From Perkinsus olseni (Eukaryota > Perkinsozoa > Perkinsida > Perkinsidae): 64,000 nt of DNA. Position 1 is the stretch's first letter. Every line of letters starts with the position of its first letter. The notes below the pieces were generated by a model. That model was not told where the DNA came from. It was given only the letters and a program-made list of their open reading frames with translations, and did not search any database. A program made the translations under genes and the position numbers. Shown here one piece after another: positions 2,578 through 47,290 of the stretch. The DNA is taken from NCBI GenBank assembly GCA_013115135.1, contig JABANP010000051.1:124001-188000 (forward strand). The letters are read 5' to 3'.

Positions 2578-2875
2578 CGCAAGTAATCTGTCGGCGGCGG
2601 TTTCTGGCCAGCAGCAGATCATCTGCTGCAGATGAGTTGCTCGAGTACATAGTGATTCGTATTTTTTGTGAGATCCTCAAGACGCGAGCCTTCGAATGGC
2701 GCGCTATTCGTTAAACGAATTTCGTTTTCATATCTATTCTGGAAATCCAGGAACTGAATGATTCGGACGGAATCGGGCGGGACAAGTGTATATGCATCAT
2801 GCGTAACGCATGCACGCACGCATGCACATAGTTATCGTGAAAAGGGCCTCTGTCGCCTTTCTGTTAGAATGCAAG

Positions 2876-4834
2876 GTTTGCCTGGCAAGGTTCGCCACTG
2901 GCGAATCGCCAGCTATAAGTAACAACGAAGGTTACTGCGTCAAAGCTTTACGAGCAAACTAATTCTAGTGATTGAGTGGCGACATAATGTCGCCGACATT
3001 TGGATCATCTCTTAGTGTCGTAGATTCTACGACATAGAGGTTTTCGATGCGCGCCTTTACCGAGAAAGGCTTCCCCGACCTTGAAGGTCCGAAGTTCGGT
3101 AAAAGTTTTACCTTAAAACCTTCGGGCCTTCTGCTGCCAGCAAATGGTGCCTCCGCCGGAGAGTTTCCTATCGTGGAGTTTCTCTCCCGCCGGCGGACTA
3201 TCGCTCGAGGACGCCGTCGAGTTTCAGTGCCGGTGGACTGTCCGGTGTCAGACTAGCATTGCCAGACACCTGGTCGGGGCCTCAACGTTAACGTGATCAA
3301 CGCATACGTGGCCGCAACCATTGAGTCAACACAGCTCTCCACTATCTCAAAGGTACGAACCGATAACTGCGCATCGCAGTCTCACCGGGCACTCTCAACC
3401 TTCAACAACACAATCACTAACCAACTCTGCAGTGGGCAATTAATTTCCATAGTGCGATGCTAATGCCATAAAAGGCCCAGAAGGGGCACGCTTACTAGCA
3501 AATGTACTTCCGCCGGCGCATTATCACTCGCAGTCACAAACTGCGGAGACCAGGTCAAACTTGGACCGTCCAAGTCTTGCGGAAAGACTTGAACTCCGCA
3601 CACATCTCCAAACATAACCCGACTTCCCAAGGCAACACCAGAGGGCACACCAACTCTTGCTCGAATACGACGCCTTCAAGAGCGATGTGACGAGCGATAG
3701 AATGATATTCATTAGAATATTATCAACATCCTGAGGAAAGAGATCAATCGACTCGAGTTTAGACTAAACTGTGTAGTCACTCGATCGAACAGTGTCTAAG
3801 GGTCATAGTATGACCCTCTGAGTACGGGCCGTACTGTACGGCGGCAGTACTCACAGTTGATCTTGCCTTCTTCGACACCATGTCCAGCACTGGTGGACCA
3901 CCAGTGCACAAGTAGGCCGGAGCCAATACCACTGGCGAACCTCCTCATAGCATTTCGCCTCGGAGGCGACTCTTGCCTCTTGACTCAACGCCTGGGAGTC
4001 CCAGAAGTTCACGGTCTTATATATCTTTGCCATTGGCAAATTGCCAACCGGTTGTCCCTTCCCGGAGGGAGATTTGGTGTGAATACCACTCGTGAGTTGC
4101 CCGACAGCGAAGGACCATGGACCAACTGTTTCTCAATAACCAGAGCATACTCGGTACGTGGCACGTACTACGTGCCCGCGCCGAGGTGATACCCCGGCCC
4201 GGGGTCCTCTGGGGAATTCCGTTCGCTCCGTATTAGTAGCCGTCACGGTCAAAGAGGAGGTGGCGTTGCCGCTGGCGGCTCCAGGGCCTGGAGTCCAGGC
4301 CCCGTCGGTCGAATGATGCTCTCCTAAGCCTTAGAGACTCTCATTAGGAGAGTCTCCTTCGCCAGCGGGATCCTCCATCATCAACACGTCTCTCAGATCA
4401 CTATAAAGTTCGAATAAACTCGTCTCAAATACTCCCCGATTTCTGGCTCGGCCGCACCCCCCATCGTCGATGGGCCATCGACGGTCGACGATCGATCCTC
4501 CAAGTCGGAGGGTCCAGCCATTTCGTGATCACCCCTGAGGTTGTAGGCTTCATTCGCCACTCCACCGCTGAACATTTTCAGCCTCATAACTGCGTGCACT
4601 GCCCTCGCACGATCAGCCGGGCTAAGCTTGCCCGCCACTCGCACATGCCTCAATGCGTCTCTCGTCAGCTGGCTGCCACGCAAAAGGGCAGCTAGAAGGA
4701 ACCACTGGTTCGAATCAGCTACCAGTTACACATTTCCAATTTGCAAGCCTCTATACGGTTCTGCTCATACAGTCTAAGGCTCTGAATCCCAATCTCGAAC
4801 TATGCTGTAGGCTACAGCCTGTAGGTTACCTACA
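2876..4834. repeat. Field of perfect one-base-loop hairpins
   Basis: No convincing gene lies in 2.2-4.9 kb. Instead there are at least 16 perfect inverted repeats with arms of 7-10 bp and exactly one base between the arms, for example at 2978-2994, 3016-3034, 3098-3112, 3560-3574, 3799-3817, 3887-3907, 4154-4168, 4191-4205, 4465-4483 and 4820-4834, plus 5-6 bp ones between. Several are chained, the right arm of one being the left arm of the next (2891-2911, 3821-3841, 4026-4047, 4279-4302). Under equal base use about 0.1 one-base-loop hairpins of 7 bp or more would be expected per 2 kb. Confidence 0.9.
4393..4683 (-). CDS. Small hypothetical ORF
   Basis: A 96-codon ORF with a plausible helical N-terminal half (arginine- and alanine-rich, RDALRHVRVAGKLSPADRAR). 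It resembles nothing I know and it overlaps the hairpin field, including the 9-bp hairpin at 4465-4483, so it may be a chance ORF. Confidence 0.2.
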   Translation of the reverse strand: MRGSQLTRDALRHVRVAGKLSPADRARAVHAVMRLKMFSGGVANEAYNLRGDHEMAGPSDLEDRSSTVDGPSTMGGAAEPEIGEYLRRVYSNFIVI

Positions 4835-9773: not shown

Positions 9774-10362
9774 TGTTTCTGATATCGTTACATCGATTGT
9801 GTTGATGCTAGTAGGAAGTCGGGCGGTGAACGAAGAAGTCAACATCCTTATCTTGATATATTATTTCATGCGTTAAAGAGTGCTGGTTAATGTGTATAAT
9901 AATATAGGAAGGGACTGTATGGTTGAAACGTCACCGCAAGACGAGGAATACCGTTGAAAACTCGTGTTCGATGGTTTCTGCAGGGGTGAGCAGATCAAAA
10001 AGATCAAATACAAGAAGGTGACCTCATTGCTAGATGTTATGGTACTTCCCTTCCGCTCTTTGTGGCAGCAGAGTTCAAGCTAGTTGGATAACGCGGGACA
10101 GAGCTGATCGTTAGCTTGCTGGCTCATCGGCGTCGAATCTTCACTAAGCCGGGGACGGCGTCGGACTTGAAACTCACACACACTCGGCTATGATGGGCCT
10201 CTCCGACGGAGAGTCTCCGTCCCATCAAACTGTTCACTCAAGCACATCATCATCAGTAGAAACAACTACATGCATTGGCAGCCTGTCCGAGGATCGCCAC
10301 GAGACCGCGTGATCATCATGTCCCTGACAAGAACATCCTGAAGTTTACCTTCTAGGAATGTG
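9774..10362. other. Intergenic, with one hairpin
   Basis: No gene seen between the OPR gene (plus) and the next gene (minus); the two converge here. Contains a one-base-loop hairpin with 7-bp arms at 10199-10213 (left arm CTCTCCG), enclosed by a further GATGGG/CCCATC pair. Confidence 0.6.
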
Positions 10363-17869: not shown

Positions 17870-20800
17870 TACTCACTACCCGGTAGTGGGTAAATAAGGA
17901 TGATGGTCCACACGCGAGAGTGTGAGAACCCTACCAGTCTGTCCCGAGGCTTGCGCTGGTATAAGGGTATCTCGACTGGCGGATCTAGTGTCGGCTCGAC
18001 CTGTCCATGACGAGCATGCTTCGACCTTGGATACTCGACAATGCTCACCTCAGAGTACGTGCCTCCAAGCCTGTCACTGGTGGGGGACAGCTGCTCCTCG
18101 CCGGGGACGACCGAAATCTCCGAGCACCGACGCTGTCTCAAGTAAGAGAGATCGTCAGCGGCGGGCTCTGAAGAACGACAACAACCGAGTTGAGCTGGAA
18201 TCTGTCACGAGCAGGGTTCGACCTAAGATACTCGGGGACTCCAGCGTGGTCGGGTCCGCGTCCAAGTGGTAGTCAATGACGGGAATCCGAGCTGAACAGA
18301 AAAATTCCGAATGAGCGATCGCAGGCAGCCGCGGTACTTAGTGTTGACTCCAATTCAGCGAAGACGACCGGAGGCAGTAAACAGGCTGGCCGAGCCGTTG
18401 ATACTAGATAGTCGACCACTCGGACGCTGGCCCTCATCAAAGGCCGATCCCACGGCGGTAGGGGTGGCGGCGGACCTGGCAAGCCAGGCTGCGATCATAA
18501 TAGCAACGCCAAGGACTCACCCGTCCGCCTTTCCTCAGAGACTGATTCGTCGTTGCTGATGAGAGAACAGAATACAACAGAACCTTCACGGTTTTTCGAG
18601 GTTGAATTGCCGTGGGGTATGGTATGTTAAAAAATGAGGGCGAAACTCCCAGCAGTCACGGCGAGTTCAACCTTTGGGTGTATATTCCAAATCAATTTGG
18701 ACCACCATACGCTGAGAATCTCCGCGGAGAGCCGAGCGCTAACCCGGATAGTCCTACGAATTGGCACGGCTACCTGGTGAGGATTTTTCTCGCGCGCCCT
18801 CAGGTAAGTGAAACGGTCGATCGATTAGCTGATATCAAAAGACTTAATCATAAATATAATAGTGCATATCATACTCAAGTTTCAGCCTCAAACACGTAGT
18901 ATGTGCTGAATCAGACTGATTTTTGTGATTTGCATATCGAATTGGAACACCCTGTAGCTTCTTGAATAACTCACGCACCTCGGAGTTACTCAAGTCGATG
19001 AATGTTACATTCAGAATGTACCATCCGAACGAAAGTACCGGTAAGACCCTCACAAAATCTCACTCCAAGAGAACAGAGAACTCAACTCTGAGAATGGTGG
19101 AGGCTTAGTCAAGGAGGTGGGCTAGTACGCGGATGGACGTGAGATCCAAGAAGGGTGGGATCTGCATCGACCTCCTGTTGAGTTATACCCCACGGGTTCC
19201 CCGCTAACATCTGCCGAGTCTCGGCAGCCGTGGAAGTACGAACACGGCTGGCCCAAACGATCCCTGCCCATGGAGTTACTCAAATCCTCAAGCATGAGGT
19301 CGATGATGTTTTCGGAAGGATGCTCCTTTTTGAATACCACTATTCTAACGCAAAGACACGCTTCGATAGCTTGAGCAATCGTAGTTGATGGTCCTAATAG
19401 TAGTAGCTCAAGAACGAGTAGTGGTCGAGCTAGTCACAATCACAGAATCTATAATAGGCTAATAGCTAGTAGTGCGACGGTCTCTGTAGCACCACAATAG
19501 TACAGATGACCCGAGGTACCAAACACTAGTTAACTAGTCTACCGATCGTCGAAATATAACCAACAATTATAGCAAGGTAGTAGTTCAAGGGAAACCGTCA
19601 ATCGTTTCGGATGCGCTCATCCTGGGCGTTCGCTACCGCAGCCTCTATGCTGCGCATTTAAGGTATCAGCACTTAAGACCCAGCAGACAATCCCTCGCCG
19701 TTAATGGTTCCTGTTTTAGAATCGACGCAAGATGCAGTCATCGCCCATTTTTCACCGCACGCAGAGCACTTCTAGTAGAAGTCTTCTACATGACGAATAA
19801 ATAACGGTACGTAGTGTAAGTTGCCGTAGTTGTACAAGTAAAATGTTTATACACTTCTTCTGCTATGTATTCTCCACGAAGAGTGAAGTGACCATCCTGG
19901 CCAGCGTGGCTACGTCCGGGCGAACGGGACAGCCCCAACTTCACTTCCAACTGACGATATAGACCTGCGGAGGCGACGGAAGGGTAACCCTCCGAGGGTT
20001 AGTTTCGCTGAGCTAACCCTGACAACCGCCAGCGTGCCTCTCAGGCAGGACTCCCTTACCGATCAAGTGGCGGATAGATGTGTATCGAGCTTCTTAATCT
20101 GTTACCCTTCCGTTCCAGGCGTTGGGTGGTGGGCCAGCAAGCCTGTGGCGCGCGCCAAAGAGGAGCCGGGTGCCACGGGCTCGTCTGGCCTGTGCGAAGG
20201 TTACCCAGCGGGTTGCTGGCAGCAACGCACCGCATGGGTGGGCGGGTGGTAAAAAACAACTGCCCAGCTGTGGGCTTATGTCCGCTACTAGCGGCTTCCT
20301 ACGGCCGGGTTTGCAGGTGACCGAGTCACCCTCGCAGCTACCAGCTGAGATTCTCTCGCCGGCCGTAGGATTATCATCATCATCCGATTTCATTATTCCC
20401 GCAGGGGGAATTTTCGAAGCACCCGATTGCGCGTGCGGCACCGCATACCGAAGGATTCACGGTCCTGCAACGGCTACACGCAGGTGACATCGGTTCCTGT
20501 CAATCGCCGCTTAACGACGAGGAGGGGAAAAGTAATACTGCTCTGTAGAATTTCCAAAAAAATCCATGAAGACTTTAATTTACAGACTCGCCGATTTATA
20601 TCTCGCATTTACCGACTGACGTATAGCCATTCTTACTGTATCCTCGGCTGCACTCTGATAGGCTTCGCTCCGCCTCTCGGTACTGCTGTTGCTGCTGACT
20701 CCGTGACGTGCTTATCATGGTCACTCAGTGTGACGGCTTCAGAAGGGGAACGAGGCGTCTTACGACGGACTGGTACTGCAGCCATTGCGAAGTGAGGGAT

Positions 20801-30275: not shown

Positions 30276-32606
30276 CTACACCAGGACCTGGGACGTGAGG
30301 AACGGGTGCTCCAACGCCTCCTCTGGAGTAATTCTCTTTCGGGGATTCAGCTCCGTCATTTTCTCCAACAAATCGATCAGCTCCTCGGTTTTCTTATCCA
30401 GATGCTTTTTATTAACGTCATCATCAGCCAGCTTTCGCGTGCCCTGCAGAACCTTCGCCCGAATCGTATCACACGAGGGATTCGGCTTGAACGCAGTTAT
30501 CGTCTTCGCCGACCCATTCTTCTGCTGCCAGACAAAATCACAGTCCTCGTTGAAGTGTCCTCTGGTCTTCACGAATTTGCTCGATCGTATCTGGCTATGC
30601 GGAAACTTTCCCTTAACATCCTGAATTTGCTTCAGCATATCATTATTATTTCGACCTTGGAAAAGTATCTTTCCCGTCCACAACTCAAATATCGTACAGC
30701 CAATAGCCCACATGTCGATCGCATAAGTATAACTCTGATAGCCCATCATAATCTCGGGCGCGCGGTAAAACCGTGAGACAAGATACTCCACAATATCTTC
30801 GCCTTCGTGAATCTCGCACGCACTGCCAAGATCGCATATTTTAAGTAGGGCGTGGTTCTTCGAGATCAGAACATTATCCGGTTTGATATCAGCATGAATA
30901 ATTTTACACTCCTTCATGTGCTTCAATCCCAACACCAGCTGCCTACTGTACGACCACACCGCCCGAGGCGCCAAACCGCGCACGCCCGGCCGAGCGTACT
31001 TTTTCATAGCGTCTCGCAGATTGCTCCACATAGCTTCGAAAACCAGGCACATATGGCCATGATAACCAAAGGTCCTGACAAGCCGAATGATGTGGCTGCG
31101 GTCCCTTCCCTTTGGGTCCTTCGCGCAAAGATTGTCCGCCTCGTCGTTCAAACGACGGAGGAGTTTAACCTCCTTCTCTGCTGCTTTGGTCATCGTCTCA
31201 TTCTTACGGATTATCTTGATAGCGACATCTTCCATTCTGAGGAACATACAGAATTATAGTCCTTAGTAGTTGCTAATTAGTAACTAATATTATGTTGGTA
31301 ACATAGTAGCTTATTATAAGTTCCTAATACCGTCTACACTTCCATCAAAAATACTACCACTGCCCGATTCAGGCAACCCGAGCAATCCACTACAGCCAAC
31401 GACACTCCGTCCACCCAACAGTGAATCTTACGCAAAGCGCGCTCGAACCAAGCTCTGCCACTATGCACAGGTGGAAGCAGCGAGTCTGCATTTCCTCAAA
31501 CTACTGCCAAAGAATACGGCGAAATCTCGGCAGGCCCGACTTGAATAAAGTCCCGACGTGATAACGAGACCAAAAATTGTCGAAAAATCTCAACGAAAGA
31601 TACTCATTTCACCAACGCGTCCCACCCGACTTACGTCTTGCTATCTTTGCACTTCAAAACGTTCGCAAACACTCCTTTACTTATATTAGAACTCTCTGAA
31701 TTCAAAACCACATACCGCCCATCTAGTGTCTCCAAGTGGGACGGTACAAAATACCTACCACAACATCACCAACTCCCTTCAACGCACCAACCACCTACCC
31801 TTCAGTATCATCCCTCTCTCCTTCGATATCATCCTTCCCTCGAGACTGCTGCAGCTCCTTGGCCTTCTCGAGCATCACCTTCACGTGCGCCTCGCTGGCC
31901 TCCCCTGCCGTGTCGCTGACCATCTGATGAGCGGTCTCGGTTACCTAACAGAGTCGACCGATTCAACTCGACCAACTAGATGAAATCAATACCTTTCTAT
32001 GCACAACTTCTTTAAGGACGTTAACCTCGGCCAAGGCTTTCGCCTTATCCTGAGCCATCTTCGCCTTCAACGCAGCCAAACCGACTGGAAGGGACTTAGC
32101 CTCAGTTGTTTTTTCCGTTGCTGTAGTGTTAGACGACCCTTCATGAGCAGACAATGACAAACTGGTGCTTCCCTCGCTATCTGAAAGAACCGGTTCAACC
32201 TATGGAAACCACCCTCAATTGCCCCACCTGCTGGCTTCTCTCTTTCTGATTTCGGCAATTCCCTCTTCGTCTCACGACTTCGTCTTTCCATACCAACTTC
32301 TCTGTGACGACTATAATCACCATCGCGAGATACCGACCTCCGACGTCGTCTCCTCAGCTCAGGGCTTCGCTCACTTCTGCGCCTGTCGTCCTCATAACGC
32401 CTTTCTCTGTGATGCCGTTCAGGAGAATAGTATCTTCGGCTCTTGCGGGACGGCGAGTAGTGGTCCCTCGACGGTCTGGGGCGCTTGATGTAACCGTCTC
32501 CAGCGGAGTCCAGGAATCGATGAGGGCGGTCGTAGTCGTGACGGCGGCTTCGACGGCTCGGATAGCTTCTGTCGTTGTAGCGGGGGGATGATGGTGAGGG
32601 CGACAT
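30276..32606 (-). CDS. PRPF4B: PRP4-type pre-mRNA splicing kinase (602 aa)
   Basis: Serine/threonine kinase of the CMGC group, associated with the spliceosome. Exons (minus): 32606-32213, 32180-31993, 31944-31799, 31754-31635, 31236-30276; GT-AG introns of 32, 48, 44 and 398 nt; one intact frame. Residues about 1-130 are Arg/Ser-rich (RRSRRHDYDRPHRFLDS). The kinase domain shows DTEGYF, LDGRYVVLN, a divergent glycine loop (SKGVFANVLKCKD), VAIKIIRK, catalytic HADIKPDN, DLGSACE in place of DFG, SRFYRAPEIM and DMWAIGCTIFELW. DLGSA and the loop sequence are PRP4 traits. An alternative start at 32636 would add 10 residues. The only break-free large gene besides H2B and the intact WAP genes. Confidence 0.95.
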
Positions 32607-33367: not shown

Positions 33368-33541
33368 TGTAAGATAACCAATAACACTACAACCAGTTTA
33401 TAGTTGAGACTTCGTAACAAAGGGGTTACAGAAGTATATGTAGTATGAGTATCTACAACTATGAATGGTGCTATAGCTGAGCATAGCTCGGAGCTAAGAT
33501 ATGGGACTGATACAACACACGACACAACGCATCCTATTTCA
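33368..33541 (-). repeat. LTR, 3' copy for the element
   Basis: 174 bp. The first three bases on the coding strand (TGA) also serve as the stop codon of the integrase ORF. Reads base for base like the other LTR. Confidence 0.95.
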
Positions 33542-35929
33542 CTCCTCCTCCTGTTGCATATAACGCTCAGGCGGTCGAAGAACGGCGCGAGGGCGTAAAC
33601 TGTGGCCACCGACATCACGCGGAGTAGGAGGTTGAGAGGAAAGAGCGGAGCGTTCAGAATTCGAATCATCCGGAGACAAAAAACCACCGGAAGTACGAGA
33701 CGAAGACGATGAGGAAGAAGACGATGAATCAGCAGACAACAGGGGTGACTCAACATCACCTGGTGATTGGACATCACCATCTTGAACGCCATACGAAGAA
33801 TTAAGAATAACATACACGTCATCGTCATCATCATCATCATCTTCATGATGTGCATCATCATCATCATCATCATCACGGGTAGCAGACAGAGGCGACGAAC
33901 CCGTAGGACGCGTAATGGCGTCAGTAGAGTGTGTCGGCTGGGGCGTATCAGGGAGTACTTGTGAGATGTGTGCATCCATAGTACGGCGTGAAGAAGGCTT
34001 CGCTAGACGGACCATCGTCGGAGCCATCTGTTGAACCACACGATACCCTCGTTCATAAGGCGGCAGTAACTTGTTACGTCTTTCTGAACGAAGTAACATC
34101 ACCGAATCACCGGGCATAAAGGCCACTTGAGGAGGTGATGAAGGTACCGAAGGAGACTGTGGTGAGAGCACACCATCGATATAATCACAAAGTCGTGCTT
34201 GACGGTCTTGCAGCATCTTAGACCACGTTTGTACATCCCACTGGTACCCTGAGTAGTCAGCATCCGACAACGTACGGTCTTCCCAACCGCACATACATAA
34301 CATAGGAGACAAGCCAAGGGTACTAGTTGGCCGACATCGATAATAATGGACAGCCTCGAGAAACACTCGCTCAAAGTGTTCGCTATCCGCATAACGATCG
34401 CACAGCTTACGGAGAATGAGCAGCAAGCTGCGATGAGCTCGTTCTACACCTCCCTGCGACTGGGGATGTCGCGGAGTACCACGACGAACCTTCACATGAT
34501 AATTATCGAGAAGAGTCCTCGTTGTAGAATTCCACATCTCAGGACCAGAATCTATGCGAAGCACTTGGGGCGGACCCCATCGCAAGAAGGCTCGGCGTAA
34601 TCCGGAAGCCACGCAGATACCATTATTCTTCTGCAAGAATTCGACCTCAATCCACTTGGTAAAACTATCGAACATCACCAGCACCGCTTCAGTACGGTGC
34701 GCAGTAGGGTTGAAGGAAATAGTATCGGCAAATACAATAGACCAAGGACCATCACCAGTAACGGCAGTAGCTCCCGTAGTGGGAGCAATGGGATTACGAC
34801 GAGTGGTAGTAGCTGCAGCACATTGCGAACAATGGTCAACAAAGTCACGGCAATCCTGGGCCATTCCAGACCAAAACGTACGCTTTCGCAATACACGCCA
34901 CATACATTCCCAGTTTGGGTGACCATAGGCTTCATGACACCATGACAAATACCGACCGGTAAACTGAGAGGGGCACAGGGGAACATTCACAACGTCATCA
35001 GGCGGAACTTTAACTCTCCTACAAAGAACGCCATCATCTGAACGAACATTAATCTGTGGCAGTATACGAGCATACGCCGGAGGAAGTTGTGATGTTGGGA
35101 GTGAACGGTCATGTACCAACTGATTAATATCAGCTAAAATAGGGTCCATCAATTGGTCACTCAACGTAACAGAAGGCTGCTGACCAAAGACCGTAATATC
35201 GGTACCAACAGCAGCAGAAGCCAGAACTTGTGCTGGCGATCCTCCGTCTTCCTCTCCTCCTCCAGATGAATCATCTTTCGCGGAGGGAGCACTACTCAAC
35301 TCTCCACGAGGATCGACGTTGGGACCTTCCACCAAAGGGTGAACCTCAACAGATGTGGTTATACTACCATGATCTCTGGGAAGAAGACATATATCATCGC
35401 AGTTGTCGAAGTCATTACCAGGCAGTCGTTGAACATTAGCCGTGATACCATCTTCATCATCAATAGCAGTGTCTGAGGGCCATGAAGGGAAAACCCTTGT
35501 TAAGCGATCAGCTACATTAGCAGATGAAGGAAGCCAACAAACCCGAAGATTCATTGAACATTGCGCTACAACATCATTAATAATAGACAGCCGTCTACTC
35601 ACCAGTGTCTGGTACAAACCGGACACTTTAACCTTAGCAGTATCATTCAGCAGAGAACTCAGCCAGCCAACCACAGTGCGACTATCGTTGTACAAAATGA
35701 TGTCCTTGGCGCCCCAAGCAACTGCAAGGTTGAGGGCACGGATAACCGAGTTTAATTCCAATATATTTATATGAAGTTTACTTCTTTTAGCGACCAGCCA
35801 GCAGGAATCTTCCAACGGCACAATAGTACCATCGCCCTTATCGACAGTGATGACCACGCCTACAGCGAGAGACGACGCATCACAATGAGAGAGAAAGTGG
35901 GATTGGAAGACAATGATGGCGGAGACCAA
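33539..35929 (-). CDS. RNase H and integrase ORF of the LTR element
   Basis: RNase H residues: HCDASSLAVGVVI (Asp), ILELNSVIRAL (Glu), LYNDSRTVVGWL (Asp), SANVADRLTR (Asp). Integrase: zinc motif with HEAYGHPNWECM and DHCSQC, then the catalytic Asp (VFADTIS), Asp (RIDSGPEMW) and Glu (GGVERAHR), all present. A C-terminal barrel-like segment (MPGDSVMLLRSERRNKLLPP) follows. The end is low complexity: Asp-rich runs encoded by a GAT/ATC repeat, a Ser run, and QQEEE. The true N-terminus is joined by frameshift to the reverse transcriptase, overlap 35860-35929. Confidence 0.95.
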   Translation of the reverse strand: MVSAIIVFQSHFLSHCDASSLAVGVVITVDKGDGTIVPLEDSCWLVAKRSKLHINILELNSVIRALNLAVAWGAKDIILYNDSRTVVGWLSSLLNDTAKVKVSGLYQTLVSRRLSIINDVVAQCSMNLRVCWLPSSANVADRLTRVFPSWPSDTAIDDEDGITANVQRLPGNDFDNCDDICLLPRDHGSITTSVEVHPLVEGPNVDPRGELSSAPSAKDDSSGGGEEDGGSPAQVLASAAVGTDITVFGQQPSVTLSDQLMDPILADINQLVHDRSLPTSQLPPAYARILPQINVRSDDGVLCRRVKVPPDDVVNVPLCPSQFTGRYLSWCHEAYGHPNWECMWRVLRKRTFWSGMAQDCRDFVDHCSQCAAATTTRRNPIAPTTGATAVTGDGPWSIVFADTISFNPTAHRTEAVLVMFDSFTKWIEVEFLQKNNGICVASGLRRAFLRWGPPQVLRIDSGPEMWNSTTRTLLDNYHVKVRRGTPRHPQSQGGVERAHRSLLLILRKLCDRYADSEHFERVFLEAVHYYRCRPTSTLGLSPMLCMCGWEDRTLSDADYSGYQWDVQTWSKMLQDRQARLCDYIDGVLSPQSPSVPSSPPQVAFMPGDSVMLLRSERRNKLLPPYERGYRVVQQMAPTMVRLAKPSSRRTMDAHISQVLPDTPQPTHSTDAITRPTGSSPLSATRDDDDDDDAHHEDDDDDDDDVYVILNSSYGVQDGDVQSPGDVESPLLSADSSSSSSSSSSRTSGGFLSPDDSNSERSALSSQPPTPRDVGGHSLRPRAVLRPPERYMQQEEE
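33542..33552 (-). promoter_or_regulatory. Polypurine tract
   Basis: AGGAGGAGGAG on the coding strand, directly before the 3' LTR; it would prime plus-strand DNA synthesis. It also encodes the last Glu residues of the integrase ORF. Confidence 0.8.
33817..33875. repeat. ATC trinucleotide microsatellite inside the integrase ORF
   Basis: Two runs of ATC on the plus strand separated by TTCATGATGTGC; in the coding frame they give Asp tracts. All changes appear to be in triplets, so the frame is kept. Confidence 0.85.
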
Positions 35930-36860
35930 ACTCCACGAACGGGATCATCTACTTGAAGTCGCTTTACTACATCATCGCAGCACTTCTTAACGTCAGGTAA
36001 CACCGGACGATCCCAAGCAACATTAGAACCAAGGCCTTCACAGCAGATGCGCTTCAAATAGGAAGTAGCCGGCCTAAGCCAGTCACATATAGGATAATGG
36101 CTGGTCAGCCTCCCACACCACTGAAACAAGGAACGTTTCGTCAGCGGGGAAGGAAGAGACAAGTCTACATCAGGCCGACGAGTCCAACATAAGTCACCAT
36201 GGTCATCAACGAGCTCAAGACCTAAGACTCGAGCTCCAGGACCAAGAGGTTCAGGCTCCTTACAGGGCAGTCCGAATAGCCGGAATTGCTCTATAACCTT
36301 GGGCACCAGAGCCTTATCGGCCACATATATGTCATCCACATAGGAATCTGCAAGAGAGACGGGCAGTCCCGAGCGTTGTAATATATATGCAACAATGCAG
36401 GTAAGCACCCGAGGCGATGTGCAAAGTCCAAAACACATGCGAGATAGAACATACCGGGAGCCTCGATATCGCACCACTTGATAAGGATACAAAGAAGGGT
36501 CCAAGCGCACCTGAAGGTACGCTTTGCGAAGGTCCACCAAAGCACCTTCATGATTTTGACTACATCGAAGCCGCCATTGCCGCAATTTATCAGGGCAAGA
36601 TATGGTAGAATAACCAGGCGTATTAATGACCAGGTCATTCAATCGGCGAGCATCGACACAAGCCCGTAACGGGGATGAGCTTTTATGGGCTTGAACCACT
36701 GGCAGGAAAGGCAGTTCTACCTTAACCGGACCGAACTTCTTCTCATCGTACGGTATGAGCCAACCGCTTGAGATCCATGATGACAGTTCTTGATCATATT
36801 GCTGCTCCTGCTGCGCAGTCAACTTCACCGGATACTTGGCTAACCGAGGAGTAAATAGGG
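35860..36860 (-). CDS. Reverse transcriptase ORF of the LTR element
   Basis: Copies element RNA into DNA. Motifs in order: PLRACVDARRLNDLV, ALVDLRKAYLQV (first catalytic Asp), YVLSRMCFGLCTSPRV, SYVDDIYV (catalytic Asp pair) and VLGLELVDDHGDLCW. The ORF has no good ATG at its start; the frame opens near 36860 (PRLAKYPVKLTAQQEQ) and is entered by frameshift from the upstream linker. It ends at 35860 where the RNase H frame takes over. The LRACVDARRLN box differs from classical Ty3/Gypsy (LNKVT-type) sequences. Confidence 0.92.
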
Positions 36861-37250
36861 TTCAGAGGTGGCTGGTCATCTTTCCAATGCCACCTGAAAG
36901 TCCAGTATCCATCGGACTTAGACCACCAAGTATCAAAATCTTGCATAGACAATTTGACGCTCCTCAAATCGTTCTTACCAGAAGCTTCAGAAGTTCCTGA
37001 AAACTCTTCCTGGACAGCTACATGACGAGATAACCGTACTGCCGACGACGCCTCAGAAGAAAACGACAGTACACTAGGAAGTGCACCTGCGGGGCGTTTT
37101 TCCTGCTCCGCACCAGCAACAACCGAACCATTACTCACATTAGTGGTAGTAGAAACATGAGCTGCCACAACGCCAGATAACCGGCCACCAGAGTAATACA
37201 ACTGAATACCATGGAAGCACTCTGAGATAATATCAGCGCCGATTAGGAGC
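36794..37250 (-). CDS. Protease C-terminus and linker of the LTR element
   Basis: Frame containing CQLLIGADIISECFHGIQLY, which is the conserved C-terminal LLIGxD part of a retroviral-type aspartic protease, followed by a Ser/Gly-rich linker with a Trp-rich end (DTWWSKSDGYWTFRWHWKDD) before the reverse transcriptase. It is out of frame with the DTGS half at 37233-37598; the join lies within about 37235-37255. Confidence 0.8.
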
Positions 37251-37598
37251 TGACATTTGAGAAACCTCCAATGAACTTACTACATGGAAATTCCATGTGA
37301 AATCACCAAGTCGAACCGAATCACTATCGCGTTGAACCTTCAGTGATACTTCACCGAAGCACCGTAAAGAAGTCCCATCAACAGTACATAACCTACAATC
37401 ACCAGTAGCATGTCGTTGAACTGACCCTGATAAACCTAGTCTACTCACCGTCTCAGATGAGACCAGACTAACAGCGCTTCCAGTGTCTAATACAGACACA
37501 CACTTCAGCTTCGACTGGACTTGAACATAAACACGAGGGGATTTACTATGACTAATGGGGCCTGAAGCACCTATAGTACATCTGACGGACTCTCGCAC
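37233..37598 (-). CDS. Aspartic protease ORF of the LTR element
   Basis: Contains the active-site motif VLDTGSAVSLVSSE and typical beta-strand sequence to SLEVS, after which the frame must change to reach LLIGAD. It overlaps the end of gag (37571-37598) in the -1 frame, as in elements that use -1 frameshifting between gag and pol; no standard slippery heptamer is evident at the overlap. Confidence 0.88.
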   Translation of the reverse strand: MRESVRCTIGASGPISHSKSPRVYVQVQSKLKCVSVLDTGSAVSLVSSETVSRLGLSGSVQRHATGDCRLCTVDGTSLRCFGEVSLKVQRDSDSVRLGDFTWNFHVVSSLEVSQMSAPNRR

Positions 37599-38473
37599 CC
37601 CTGAGCACGCGGGAGTCCCTGACCGTTTCCCGACTCAGTAGACTGAACAGGAGCATCACCTTGAGAGGTGCTAATAGCAGCAGTAAAGGGAGTAGAGGGA
37701 ACTTCATCACGGGGAACATTACCAGCAGCAGAATGCCTTGACAAAGGACAATTCCGACGAATATGTCCGGGTCGACCGCACTTGTAACATATCACCTTTG
37801 ACGATCTCGAACTCTGAGACCGATTCCTATTATCCTTCCGTGAACGATCGTAGGGATGGCCAGCTTGACGAGAGTTAGTACCAGCAACCACAGTAGCAGA
37901 ATGCATATTCTGAGGAAGCAAAGTTCGTGCACGCAACACGGCTTTAGACAAGTCAAGCTCACCTTCTGGAGCCGCAAGCAGACGAATCTGTTCGGCAGCA
38001 GAAGAGGGCAAACCAGCGACAAAACGTTCCGCCAGGACGCTAGGGGCAGTGGAAGGATCAGTCCCTGACAAGCGTAATAGTCTCCTCAACTCGCTCAAGT
38101 AGGTGTCGACTCCTTCACCTTCCCTAAAATCGCGGGCTTGGAACTGGACCCAAGCATCCGATTTAGTAGGGCTAAACGCGGCTTCCATCGCCGTAACCAG
38201 AGCTCCTTTAGTAGCAGTAGTAGCGGCAGGAAGAGACTCATAAACGTCCCAGGCGGGTCCCTCGAAAAACAAGGGCATATACTCGCGCTGCTTCTCCTCG
38301 TTCCAACCCTGGATACCACTTACCAGCTCAAACTTGGTGAGCCAGTGCTGAAACGTGTCCCCCTCCTCTTCAGAAGTGGCACCGTAATACCTTTTAAGAA
38401 CTTGTTCAAACTTAATGGCAGACATAACACTACAGCACTCACGTTGAAGAAGACTAACTTGACCACTAACCAA
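37571..38473 (-). CDS. Gag-like ORF of the LTR element
   Basis: About 300 aa; a likely start is the internal Met at 38425 (MSAIKFEQVLKRYYG). Helical capsid-like region (FQHWLTKFELVSGIQGW; PLFFEGPAWDVYESLPAATT) and a C-terminal CCHC zinc knuckle CYKCGRPGHIRRNC, preceded by a basic Ser/Arg stretch. It packages element RNA. The ORF is intact. Confidence 0.93.
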   Translation of the reverse strand: MVSGQVSLLQRECCSVMSAIKFEQVLKRYYGATSEEEGDTFQHWLTKFELVSGIQGWNEEKQREYMPLFFEGPAWDVYESLPAATTATKGALVTAMEAAFSPTKSDAWVQFQARDFREGEGVDTYLSELRRLLRLSGTDPSTAPSVLAERFVAGLPSSAAEQIRLLAAPEGELDLSKAVLRARTLLPQNMHSATVVAGTNSRQAGHPYDRSRKDNRNRSQSSRSSKVICYKCGRPGHIRRNCPLSRHSAAGNVPRDEVPSTPFTAAISTSQGDAPVQSTESGNGQGLPRAQGCESPSDVL

Positions 38474-38524: not shown

Positions 38525-38698
38525 TGTAAGATAACCAATAACACTACAACCAGTTTATAGTTGAGACTTCGTAACAAAGGGGTTACAGAAGTATATGTAG
38601 TATGAGTATCTACAACTATGAATGGTGCTATAGCTGAGCATAGCTCGGAGCTAAGATATGGGACTGATACAACACACGACACAACGCATCCTATTTCA
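38525..38698 (-). repeat. LTR, 5' copy for the element
   Basis: 174 bp, TG...CA, same as 33368-33541 by eye. Likely carries the element promoter. Confidence 0.95.
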
Positions 38699-39060
38699 TC
38701 CTCTCACCATCTAATGATTAGATTCTAATCATCTGGGTTTCCGCAATCGCAGTTGTTGGTCCTGGGACTACTTAATCCTCTTTTCACCTTCTTTCTCCCT
38801 CATGCCTAGTAGGCTGCCCAGTGTGGCATGCCTCCCTCCCCGCCTTTCCTGGCTGCACGACGTAGTTGTGACGAAGTTCCTCTCAAGAGCCTCCGAGTTG
38901 ATGATGACAGATTGATTAACCTCTGTTGTTTTAAGGCTCTATGGTTGGGTCTAACCATATCGGGATCCGCTTGCGCGGGTCGTGTGATGGGCGATAAGCT
39001 TTGAGCTTGTAATGCCCAGGCAATAAAGTTTGAATTGAATTGAATTGAATTGAATTGAAT
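38699..39060 (+). mobile_element. Truncated LINE, 3' part with (TTGAA)n tail
   Basis: Ends with AATAAAG and about five units of TTGAA, the simple-repeat tail of many non-LTR retrotransposons, right before the second target-site copy. The first four bases are the LTR element's own target duplication. No coding capacity; a 5'-truncated, dead copy. Confidence 0.8.
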
Positions 39061-39072
39061 TGCGTCGACACG
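39061..39072 (+). repeat. Target-site duplication of the LINE, right copy
   Basis: TGCGTCGACACG, identical to 33213-33224. Confidence 0.85.
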
Positions 39073-42953: not shown

Positions 42954-43429
42954 CTGGCCGCATCTCGATGTGTTCGATGTATTGTCACCAGCATTCATCT
43001 TTTGCGTTACGAACAGCTTGGGAAGTGTCTCTCCCGGAGAGGACCGAGTATATAATAACGATTGATAACCACCACAGATCCTACTAGACGATTCAGATTT
43101 TGTTACAGCAGATCGTCCTATGTTGCAAGTGGCCCTGCCGACCTGGTAAAGAACAACGTATACGAAGGTTGTCACTTTACACGCTGATCCGTCTCGAGAC
43201 GTTGTTCGTAATGAGTGTGGCTTGCTAAGCCTCCTAATTTCAGTAGGTGGCTTCTAAGCCTAGCTTCGCATGCTAGGAACTGGATTGATAGTCCTTAGCC
43301 AGATAAGTATGATCTCATCGCAGCACCTCTAGTTGAGTTATGGGCTTGGTGAGCTAATCTGCACCAGCCTGATACCCCGACGAAAAAGAAATGGTGAGTC
43401 GCCATTAGCGACGATCCACCCCGTCAGAA

Positions 43430-43501
43430 GGGTGTGTAGCTCAGTGGTAGAGCGGCTGACTGCAGATCAGCAGGTCCTCGGTTCAAATCCGGGCGCGCCC
43501 T
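43430..43501 (+). tRNA. tRNA-Cys (GCA), copy 1
   Basis: 72 nt folding as a full cloverleaf: acceptor GGGTGTG/CGCGCCC with two G-T pairs, D arm with AGTGGTAGAGC, anticodon loop CTGCAGA (anticodon GCA), T arm GGTTCAAATCC, discriminator T as expected for Cys. No intron. Confidence 0.96.
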
Positions 43502-44653
43502 ATTCCGCGCAGTCGCGCTTGTGCTGCTTGATACGCCGCAGCACCTACTGCCGGTGTTGGCAACGGCGCGTTGCTGAGATGTTCGAAGGAGGGACTACGT
43601 TCCGCTCGAGAGGTCTAACTAGTCTCGGCCTTGGACCACGACTGGAGCAGCTTTGAGCTGGCTGTACGCTTTGGAGCAGTACAGCACGAGCCTGTTCAGG
43701 CCATACGACGCCTGGCTCTTGCTCGAGGCCTCTTGGCTGCAAGAGCTGATGAGGTCTGCCGATATCTTCCAGCTGATGTGGAGGTGCTCAAGAATAAGCA
43801 GCTCCACAGCAGTGACTTCAGTGATAACTAGGGACGTCATAGGTGACGCGTAGAAGAATCAACATCAAATCAACACGCTAAAATACGGGAGACAACTCTT
43901 CAGAGAGACATGAACTGTCACTTCACGACCACATGGGCTTGCTCTTCGGATCGGGCAGATCCATTCGCGTCCGCAGCACTCGACGGAGCTTCTGTAAGTG
44001 ATCCAATTTAGTATCCAAAGACCTGAATCCAGCGACGAATGTGATAGATATTCCTCGTTCACGACTCATCGACCTACTTAGTGCTGTTGATGAAGATGTT
44101 CCTCTCATCGTTCCACCGGACCAGCCCCTCCATTGCGAAGTCGCTACGCGGAGGCCGGCGTGACCCGTCCGGTGACCTTCAAGGGTACTTGAAGTGCAAG
44201 CGTATACCGAAACCAAATCTCGCTACCTCGAGTACGAAGACATCAGCCCCGACGCGCTCAAGTCGTTGGTAGTCATCACTCTCGATCTAAGACGATCCGT
44301 CCTGGACGAAAAGAACTCTCGAGGGCTAGGTTCAGTGGATGGAATGTCCGAAGCTAGCCTCACCAATCTCGTGCAAAGGCAACCTTCTCAGCCACCCCGG
44401 GGCACTCGTCCAGCCCTGCCAGGGCTTCTTCAACCTGAAAAGTCAGTCATCAACGGCATGAAAGACGTACATGAAAGCTACCTCACGAGCTCTTGATCCT
44501 GGCGTATCCGGCTGATCATACTGGTGAAATCCATGGAGATCTCGGCGAGTTCATACTCCAATTGAGTTATGAGCTCAACAAGTTCACTGGTGCCAGCTCG
44601 ATACTACGAGGAGAAAAGGCGTGACACCTACTACTGCAAAGCAAAAACTCGAA
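43502..44653 (+). other. Spacer between the tRNA-Cys genes, possible exons
   Basis: Plus-strand frames with protein-like runs: about 43650-43850 (LEQYSTSLFRPYDAWLLLEA) and about 44197-44496 (RYLEYEDISPDALKSLVVIT). No family recognized and no complete model. The 16-mer TCGAGGCCTCTTGGCT near 43722 recurs near 44893, so the unit with the tRNA may be duplicated. Confidence 0.3.
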
Positions 44654-44725
44654 GGGTGTGTAGCTCAGTGGTAGAGCGGCTGACTGCAGATCAGCAGGTC
44701 CTCGGTTCAAATCCGGGCGCGCCCT
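44654..44725 (+). tRNA. tRNA-Cys (GCA), copy 2
   Basis: All 72 nt identical to copy 1, 1,224 bp away, same strand. Flanks differ apart from a few bases, so either only the gene has been kept identical or the copy is recent. Confidence 0.96.
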
Positions 44726-44992
44726 TATTCATGCTACTTGTGTGCGCTTATATCCGACGGCACTCAGTGATCCGGGGGCAGAGCGCTTCGAACGAGGCAC
44801 CCCATTGCGCGTGAGAGAGCGAGTCGATCTCTGGCCAGTCGCCGCTTGACGAGTCTGGTGAGGCAAGGCAATACCCAAGTCGTGGTCGAGGCCTCTTGGC
44901 TCCTGGTACATCGACTGGAGGGCAGACAACGCCTGAGTAGAAATACGGGATGGCAGTCATTGTAAAGAGCGACGTTCGGAGGGCGAGGGGCT

Positions 44993-46740: not shown

Positions 46741-47290
46741 TGCCCTAGTCTAGGGTCCCTAGAATCTAGGGCCTAGAATGCCCTTCTGCGCTTGTTCCTA
46801 GTCATGGCGGAACCTTGGCGAGAGGGCCGCACCGTGCGGCCCACAGATGGCTACGCTGAGATTTTATTTGTCAAATTTTGATTGCGCGACCGGGACCCGG
46901 TCACCGGGTTTTCAATACAATATGCTTATGAGAGTTTGAGTTTAAAGTTTGAGAAAGTAATTCGTCTTAGTTGAGGAGTCCTCGTGCCGAACAGTTTCCA
47001 CATTCTCTAGATTGCGCGTACTGTAGCTCATTCACTACCAATTCAAAGTTTGGAATTCACACTGAGGAGGCGACACTGTCGAGATTTTATCATTGATAAT
47101 CGCGACTCGTCACGAGTCCCTCGTGAGCCGAACGATTTCAGGGCGGGCGCCATTGCGTGCGAAGTCTCGCTCGCCCATTCTCGAAACGGTTAGATACGCG
47201 CCGGCATTGCCGGGGTTTCGGGTTGCCGGGTTCAACGGGTTGCCTAAACCCGAAACCCGCGCCACCTTGTGGCGCGGCGCCACAAGGGCG
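46741..47290. repeat. Second hairpin field, with a five-step reflection chain
   Basis: Gene-free DNA. At 46743-46777 one arm family (CCCTAG and its complement) is reflected five times: successive perfect hairpins share arms, each pair separated by one base. Then a 9-bp hairpin at 46824-46842 (left arm GGGCCGCAC), 7-bp at 46888-46902, 6-bp at 47201-47213, an 8-bp one with 3-nt loop at 47258-47276 and, overlapping it, an 11-bp hairpin with one-base loop at 47265-47287 (left arm CCTTGTGGCGC). A similar pair lies at 45895-45914. Confidence 0.9.

Follow-up and report, generated by a model that had tools for sequence, protein, structure and literature searches.

Zigzag palindromes of 22 nt in the Perkinsus olseni genome as probable excision footprints of hAT transposons

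Results

The locus and its longest chain of reflected arms

We analysed a window of 64,000 nucleotides, which is part of contig C457 of the Perkinsus olseni genome (61.5 Mb, 968 contigs). On the minus strand, a kinase frame at 30276-31247 had a PRP4 kinase of P. olseni as its best named match, at 72% identity, and matched an unnamed sequence at 87%. At 33539-38473, also on the minus strand, lies a retroelement whose frames are gag-like, reverse transcriptase, and integrase; three near-complete further copies exist at 94-99% identity. The segment at 38697-39062 is the end of a repeat with at least 36 further copies (97-99% identity among the matches listed), some of them paired on one contig, and resembles an LTR or a short element flanked by LTRs. 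Two tRNA-Cys genes with an identical anticodon lie 1224 nt apart (43429-43502 and 44653-44726).

At 46743-46777 a preliminary description of this DNA had noticed one motif reflected five times in a row. The five alternating arms are present and form four hairpins with 1-nt loops and arms of 6, 7, 7, and 6 nt, an arrangement far above the chance level. When chains were defined by an arm of at least 6 nt, a loop of at most 4 nt, and a share of at least 6 nt, the window contained 15 arm-sharing chains of two or more hairpins, as compared with 0.13 per shuffle in 30 dinucleotide shuffles. The possibility, raised in the same description, that such chains are equally common in shuffled sequence was thus dismissed.

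Hairpins and the 22-nt unit

The statistics were obtained from 261,183 bases, comprising the window, the rest of its contig, and six other contigs represented by 10 kb apiece. When perfect hairpins in this sample were tabulated by arm and loop, a strong excess was observed at a loop of 1 nt only. With this loop the counts rose sharply to a peak at arm 7 (120 versus 14 expected), with 102 versus 53 at arm 6 and 41 versus 2 at arm 8; at other loop sizes, arm-7 hairpins numbered 7-20 for 8-12 expected. Loop-1 hairpins with arms of at least 7 nt amounted to 191, where ~17 were expected by chance. All 191 are distinct in sequence, which points to a process rather than a repeat family and rules out a repeat family or a mobile hairpin as their source. 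The suggestion that an element spreads as hairpins is not supported, in view of this diversity, of the fixed unit length and the centre base described below, and of the paralogs, which at 13 sites carry nothing but the 8-mer of an empty site.

Most of these hairpins (139/191) fall within a larger figure of 22 nt, and 52/191 lie outside it. This unit combines two loop-1 hairpins with arm 7, the centre of one lying 7 nt from that of the other; 14 base pairs were scored, and up to two mismatched pairs were accepted in this assignment. Strict units numbered 45 in the sample versus 0.0 expected from 20 shuffles, 36 of them on C457 (201 kb) and nine on the six other contigs (60 kb). Units with at most two mismatched pairs numbered 112 versus 1.0 expected, and those with exactly three mismatches 56 versus 9.9. 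The same geometry with a centre spacing of 6, 8, 9, 10, or 11 nt did not occur in the 261 kb. Sorted by target length, the 45 strict units at 8 nt were accompanied by none at 7 and 9-12 nt and by two at 6 nt (0.1 expected), and zigzag geometry at a target length of 5 nt was found 12 times for 4.0 expected. In 100 kb of E. coli, no strict unit of length 8 was found, and arm-7 loop-1 hairpins were at 9 versus 6.2 expected. If the sample is representative, the genome would carry ~10,000 strict units and ~26,000 with at most two mismatches.

The units of the window discussed below are as follows; none has a strand assigned, and the word footprint anticipates the interpretation that we consider very probable.

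46742-46763, no strand, first putative footprint of the longest chain, 8-mer GCCCTAGA, one mismatched pair
46757-46778, no strand, second putative footprint of the longest chain, overlapping the first, 8-mer CCCTAGAA, one mismatched pair
46888-46909, no strand, strict 22-nt unit, 8-mer GACCGGGT, bare 8-mer in two paralogs, by eye
38709-38730, no strand, strict 22-nt unit in a many-copy repeat, 8-mer ATCTAATC, 20 copies read (15 bare, 5 of 22 nt)
4026-4047, no strand, strict 22-nt unit, 8-mer TTTGCCAA, three paralogs shorter by 14 nt
2613-2634, no strand, strict 22-nt unit, 8-mer AGCAGATG, one paralog shorter by 14 nt
2706-2727, no strand, strict 22-nt unit, 8-mer ATTCGTTT
2891-2912, no strand, strict 22-nt unit, 8-mer TTCGCCAG
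2979-3000, no strand, strict 22-nt unit, 8-mer GCGACATT
3821-3842, no strand, strict 22-nt unit, 8-mer AGTACGGC
4154-4175, no strand, strict 22-nt unit, 8-mer GTACGTGC
4279-4300, no strand, strict 22-nt unit, 8-mer CTCCAGGC
4460-4481, no strand, strict 22-nt unit, 8-mer CCCATCGA
10199-10220, no strand, strict 22-nt unit, 8-mer CTCTCCGT
18999-19020, no strand, strict 22-nt unit, 8-mer TGAATGTA
19768-19789, no strand, strict 22-nt unit, 8-mer ACTTCTAC

Arm-sharing had previously been noted at six further places. Those at 2891, 3821, 4026, and 4279 each proved to be a strict 22-nt zigzag. The one given as 19778-19799 is a genuine zigzag, but it lies at 19768-19789, so that the coordinates were off by 10. 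At 47258-47287 the arm-sharing was reproduced (an 11-1-11 hairpin at 47265-47287 with a 7-3-7 hairpin), but this place holds no 22-nt unit even at three mismatched pairs. The tally itself was too low: the window has 40 units with at most two mismatched pairs of 14.

The units are clustered, with a variance of 1.26 per kb for a mean of 0.43 and 10 units in the densest kb. In the window, 18 units (at most two mismatches) are packed into ~2.2 kb at 2600-4830. None of the 112 units lies inside an open frame of at least 200 codons, where 19.4 were expected, although this depletion is partly built in because the scar itself breaks a frame. Outside the units, L006 9038, L009 4646, L017 2981, and L022 4063 (L numbers denote loci) are perfect palindromes in which a 1-nt loop separates arms of 17-21 nt; they may be one-sided products of a hairpin opened farther out.

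The longest chain can be read as two overlapping 22-nt units, 46742-46763 and 46757-46778, and thus looks as if it had grown stepwise, a mode of growth that the preliminary description had suggested looking for. Removal of 14 nt, twice, leaves GCCCTAGAATG, and two successive events would therefore explain the five arms. Among the 112 units, seven pairs have starts at most 30 nt apart. No paralog of the longest chain was found in the genome of 968 contigs.

Empty sites in paralogs

If a unit arose at a target T1-T8, it should read T1-T7, the complement of T8 to T1, and T2-T8, and an unaffected copy should read T1-T8 only and be shorter by 14 nt. Loci of at least 300 bases were compared pairwise, and 25 rows had a unit with at most two mismatches well within the alignment. 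At 11 sites, at least one paralog was shorter by exactly 14 nt; at one of them (L038 442), a second paralog has a different gap. Twelve of the 25 rows, representing six sites viewed from both sides, had both copies identical in state. The other two were L021 4888, in a 71% alignment, and L026 1968, which is the only one of the 25 that resembles a plain tandem repeat, the form that the preliminary description had named as evidence against reflection.

Together with window positions 38709 and 46888, a bare 8-nt empty site was thus found in paralogs of 13 sites. The unit at 38709 lies in the repeat of at least 36 further copies described above. Among 20 copies read, 15 have the bare ATCTAATC and five have the 22-nt form, a proportion that is not a frequency because the five were picked for matches reaching past the site. 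Three of these five share one A-to-C change. At 46888, 111 nt from the end of the longest chain, the bare GACCGGGT was recognised by eye in paralogs L081 and L082, the automatic alignment having put the gap elsewhere; of three further paralogs read, two look empty but changed. The several empty copies at window positions 4026 and 38709 support a change from 8 to 22 nt as the probable direction.

The empty 8-mers give the bases at the border of the target, and the centres of the palindromes are their complements. A list of gaps between paralogs held 11 entries of 14 nt, corresponding to nine sites (seven strict units and two with one mismatch). A 13-nt gap at L047 (two entries) reads as a footprint one base short, and by eye the other 13-nt gap and the 12-nt gaps were not footprint-like. 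The list also held two 22-nt gaps and one 24-nt gap.

Target preference and decay

The target consensus was derived from 126 distinct units with at most one mismatch. T was favoured at position 2 and A at position 7 (T2/A7, 93/252, p=4e-6), as was G1/C8 (90/252, p=4e-4), and G2/C7 was avoided (34/252, p=1e-6). The hAT transposons Hermes and hobo are described as preferring nTnnnnAn (PMC10368747, PMC8961557), and the T2/A7 preference fits this target choice.

Since each inner target base is present three times in a unit, changes can be read from one genome. Comparison of the three copies in 176 units gave 102 changes among 3066 base positions, a count lowered by the cut at two mismatches. These were 56 transitions and 46 transversions; C-to-T plus G-to-A changes equalled the reverse (28 versus 28), so that there is no C-to-T excess.

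Candidate source elements and repair proteins

The hAT dimerisation domain had at least 21 matches in this genome, as compared with none in any of 14 control genomes. Two hAT copies with 8-bp duplications were found. That at L026 measures 1431 bp and ends in perfect repeats of at least 12 nt; its duplication is GTCCGGAG, continued on one side as a short tandem repeat. The second, at L002 982-2845, has GTCTGATG flanking both sides. Within this copy, a segment of ~448 bp (L002 1778-2225) recurs on several contigs at 97-100% identity. A structure search for 8-bp duplications with end repeats over the loci examined gave one match, the L026 element. Across 84 kb of loci around hAT domains and other repeat loci, 37 strict units were counted, some of them being one site seen in several related copies.

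None of the loci examined in this one genome showed an occupied site where another copy has a scar. From the large insertions between paralogs, four candidate places were inspected and rejected as occupied sites, as they are not simple elements with 8-bp duplications. In searches ignoring introns, the genome gave a single weak Ku match (contig C523, 70226-70354, 28.3 bits) and a single match to DRMBL, the Artemis/Pso2-type domain (contig C623, 83117-83323, 64.2 bits). Judged by these domain matches, the two are candidates for a role in hairpin repair.

Discussion

A proposed model of hAT excision

We consider it very probable that the 22-nt zigzags were each left behind by the excision of a DNA transposon of the hAT superfamily. 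The element would insert and thereby duplicate an 8-bp target, T1-T8. In hAT chemistry, the first nick is made one base out in the flank, and the geometry observed here matches this. The transposase would nick each flank one base outside the element and join the end to the opposite strand, leaving hairpin-capped flanks in which T1-T7 runs on into the complement of T8 to T1, with the counterpart on the right, that is, two 7-1-7 odd palindromes. A nuclease may then open the two hairpins, cutting level with or past the distal end of the 8-bp copy, and the two overhangs, which would carry the same 8 nt in complementary form, could anneal, whereupon non-matching tails would be trimmed and the joint sealed. 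The product would measure 7+8+7 = 22 nt, which is 14 nt more than the empty site. Annealing and trimming would give exactly 22 nt whatever the positions of the nicks, and the fixed length would thereby be explained. If an element later inserted into an old scar and was excised in turn, a longer chain such as that at 46743-46777 would result. An origin by way of hairpins, as proposed earlier for the reflected arms, fits this scheme.

The states of 8 and 22 nt, the rule for the centre base, and the target bias are direct observations. They agree with hAT excision in the unit length of 8 bp (45 strict units at this length and 13 empty sites of 8 nt), in a centre that is the complement of the base bordering the presumed element, and in the preference for nTnnnnAn (93/252); elements with 8-bp duplications also exist in the same genome (two copies, one running into a tandem repeat). 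Several observations count against the hAT reading: hAT genes are few (at least 21 matches) for so many scars, 52 of the 191 hairpins lie outside units, the length-5 class is in excess (12 versus 4.0), the duplication of the L026 element runs into a tandem repeat, no occupied site was found at scars in the loci examined, the longest chain itself lacks a paralog, and Ac/Ds footprints are reported to be varied.

Another superfamily whose duplications measure 8-9 bp, such as MULE, is an improbable source of the footprints. The MULE domain has 38 matches in the genome, and the MULE Muta1 is described as making 8- or 9-bp duplications (PMC5225508). However, duplications of 8 or 9 bp chosen without sequence preference do not correspond to the units, for which no line appears at length 9 and the T2/A7 preference fits hAT. 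Muta1 is reported to have shown no sequence preference and to have excised precisely in ~90% of cases in yeast, and the paper nowhere uses the word hairpin (PMC5225508).

The scarcity of resident hAT genes relative to the many scars would suit a domesticated or free hAT-type transposase that cuts with an 8-bp stagger, followed by fill-in and hairpin repair, with no element ever resident. Kat1 of Kluyveromyces lactis is described as a domesticated hAT transposase making hairpin-capped breaks, but it is also described as requiring transposon end repeats (PMC4763223), whereas the scars here sit at many different 8-mers. This scenario needs an extra fill-in step that nothing here demands, and we regard it, too, as improbable.

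Polymerase strand switching, one of the origins first suggested for this DNA, supposes that a replicating polymerase turns back on the nascent strand repeatedly and writes alternating arms. Reflected arms with short junctions would indeed result. However, this process predicts neither an arm of exactly 7 nt, a single line at length 8, a target consensus, nor an exact 14-nt difference between paralogs, and zigzags of three arms (5-10 nt) with zero junction were absent. The length spectrum, with the unit fixed at 8, the centre base that complements the border base of the 8-mer, and the 8-nt empty sites at 13 sites make it very improbable. Tandem duplication of short palindromes plus point mutations would likewise read as a zigzag, but it is hardly credible given the empty sites, the paralogs' 8-mer that is not itself palindromic, the gain of 14 nt at all 11 sites, and hairpins that differ in 191 of 191 cases.

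Uniformity of the scars and their use

Under the hAT reading, the uniform 22-nt form needs a host-specific reason, because reported Ac/Ds footprints are varied. Tentatively, and with greater doubt than the hAT reading itself carries, we suggest that this protist may repair hAT hairpin breaks along a single, almost invariant pathway, in which opening beyond the duplication and annealing of complementary 8-nt overhangs would yield uniform scars. Excision may be highly efficient, conceivably controlled by the host, which would leave the genome with thousands of scars and only tens of elements, and each scar, as three copies of six target bases, may be self-dating and record mutations without an outgroup.

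Transposon excision is usually hard to see afterwards; here one genome suffices to count the probable scars, with very few chance matches. Most have one exact 22-base form, so that past jumps, and the way in which this organism repairs cut DNA, could be read from them like a fossil record. They make past transposition rates, the choice of targets, and the repair of hairpins directly testable in a group of protists that has been little studied, and a mutation spectrum can be drawn from one genome because each inner target base is present in triplicate. The scan is applicable to other genomes and to any target length.

Comparison with known systems

In V(D)J recombination, off-centre opening of hairpin-capped ends leaves short palindromic additions (P nucleotides). 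The additions described here would likewise arise from hairpin-capped ends opened off-centre, but both sides would be retained and fused via the 8-nt repeat. A link between V(D)J recombination and hAT elements has been named (PMC1978519). Hairpin-capped flanks after hAT excision are stated for Hermes (PMC4763223). Kat1 resembles the system proposed here in being a hAT-type transposase with hairpin-capped breaks, but is described as acting in mating-type switching at its own end repeats (PMC4763223), whereas the scars here occupy many dispersed 8-mers. Hermes and hobo share the 8-bp target with nTnnnnAn, although the preference is weaker here (T2/A7 at 93/252) than in the published descriptions (PMC10368747, PMC8961557).

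A close parallel is Ac/Ds in yeast, Arabidopsis, and Candida albicans, for which inverted repeats centred on the complement of the element-adjacent base, an explanation by hairpins on the flanks, and microhomology joints are described (PMC5873905). Long palindromes also occur there: Ds footprints in S. cerevisiae include palindromes of up to 20 nt, with 88-89% microhomology, and in C. albicans 28 kinds were distinguished among 128 Ac/Ds footprints, with a longest palindromic addition of 3 nt (PMC5873905). In contrast to these varied products, one full 22-nt form dominates the hairpin-type scars here and is spread through the genome. A literature search, with most subscription journals outside its coverage, recognised neither a uniform 22-nt hAT scar nor such scars in Perkinsus. 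Thus, the geometry of the footprint is already known from Ac/Ds, and what appears to be new is its uniformity and its abundance and density in this lineage.
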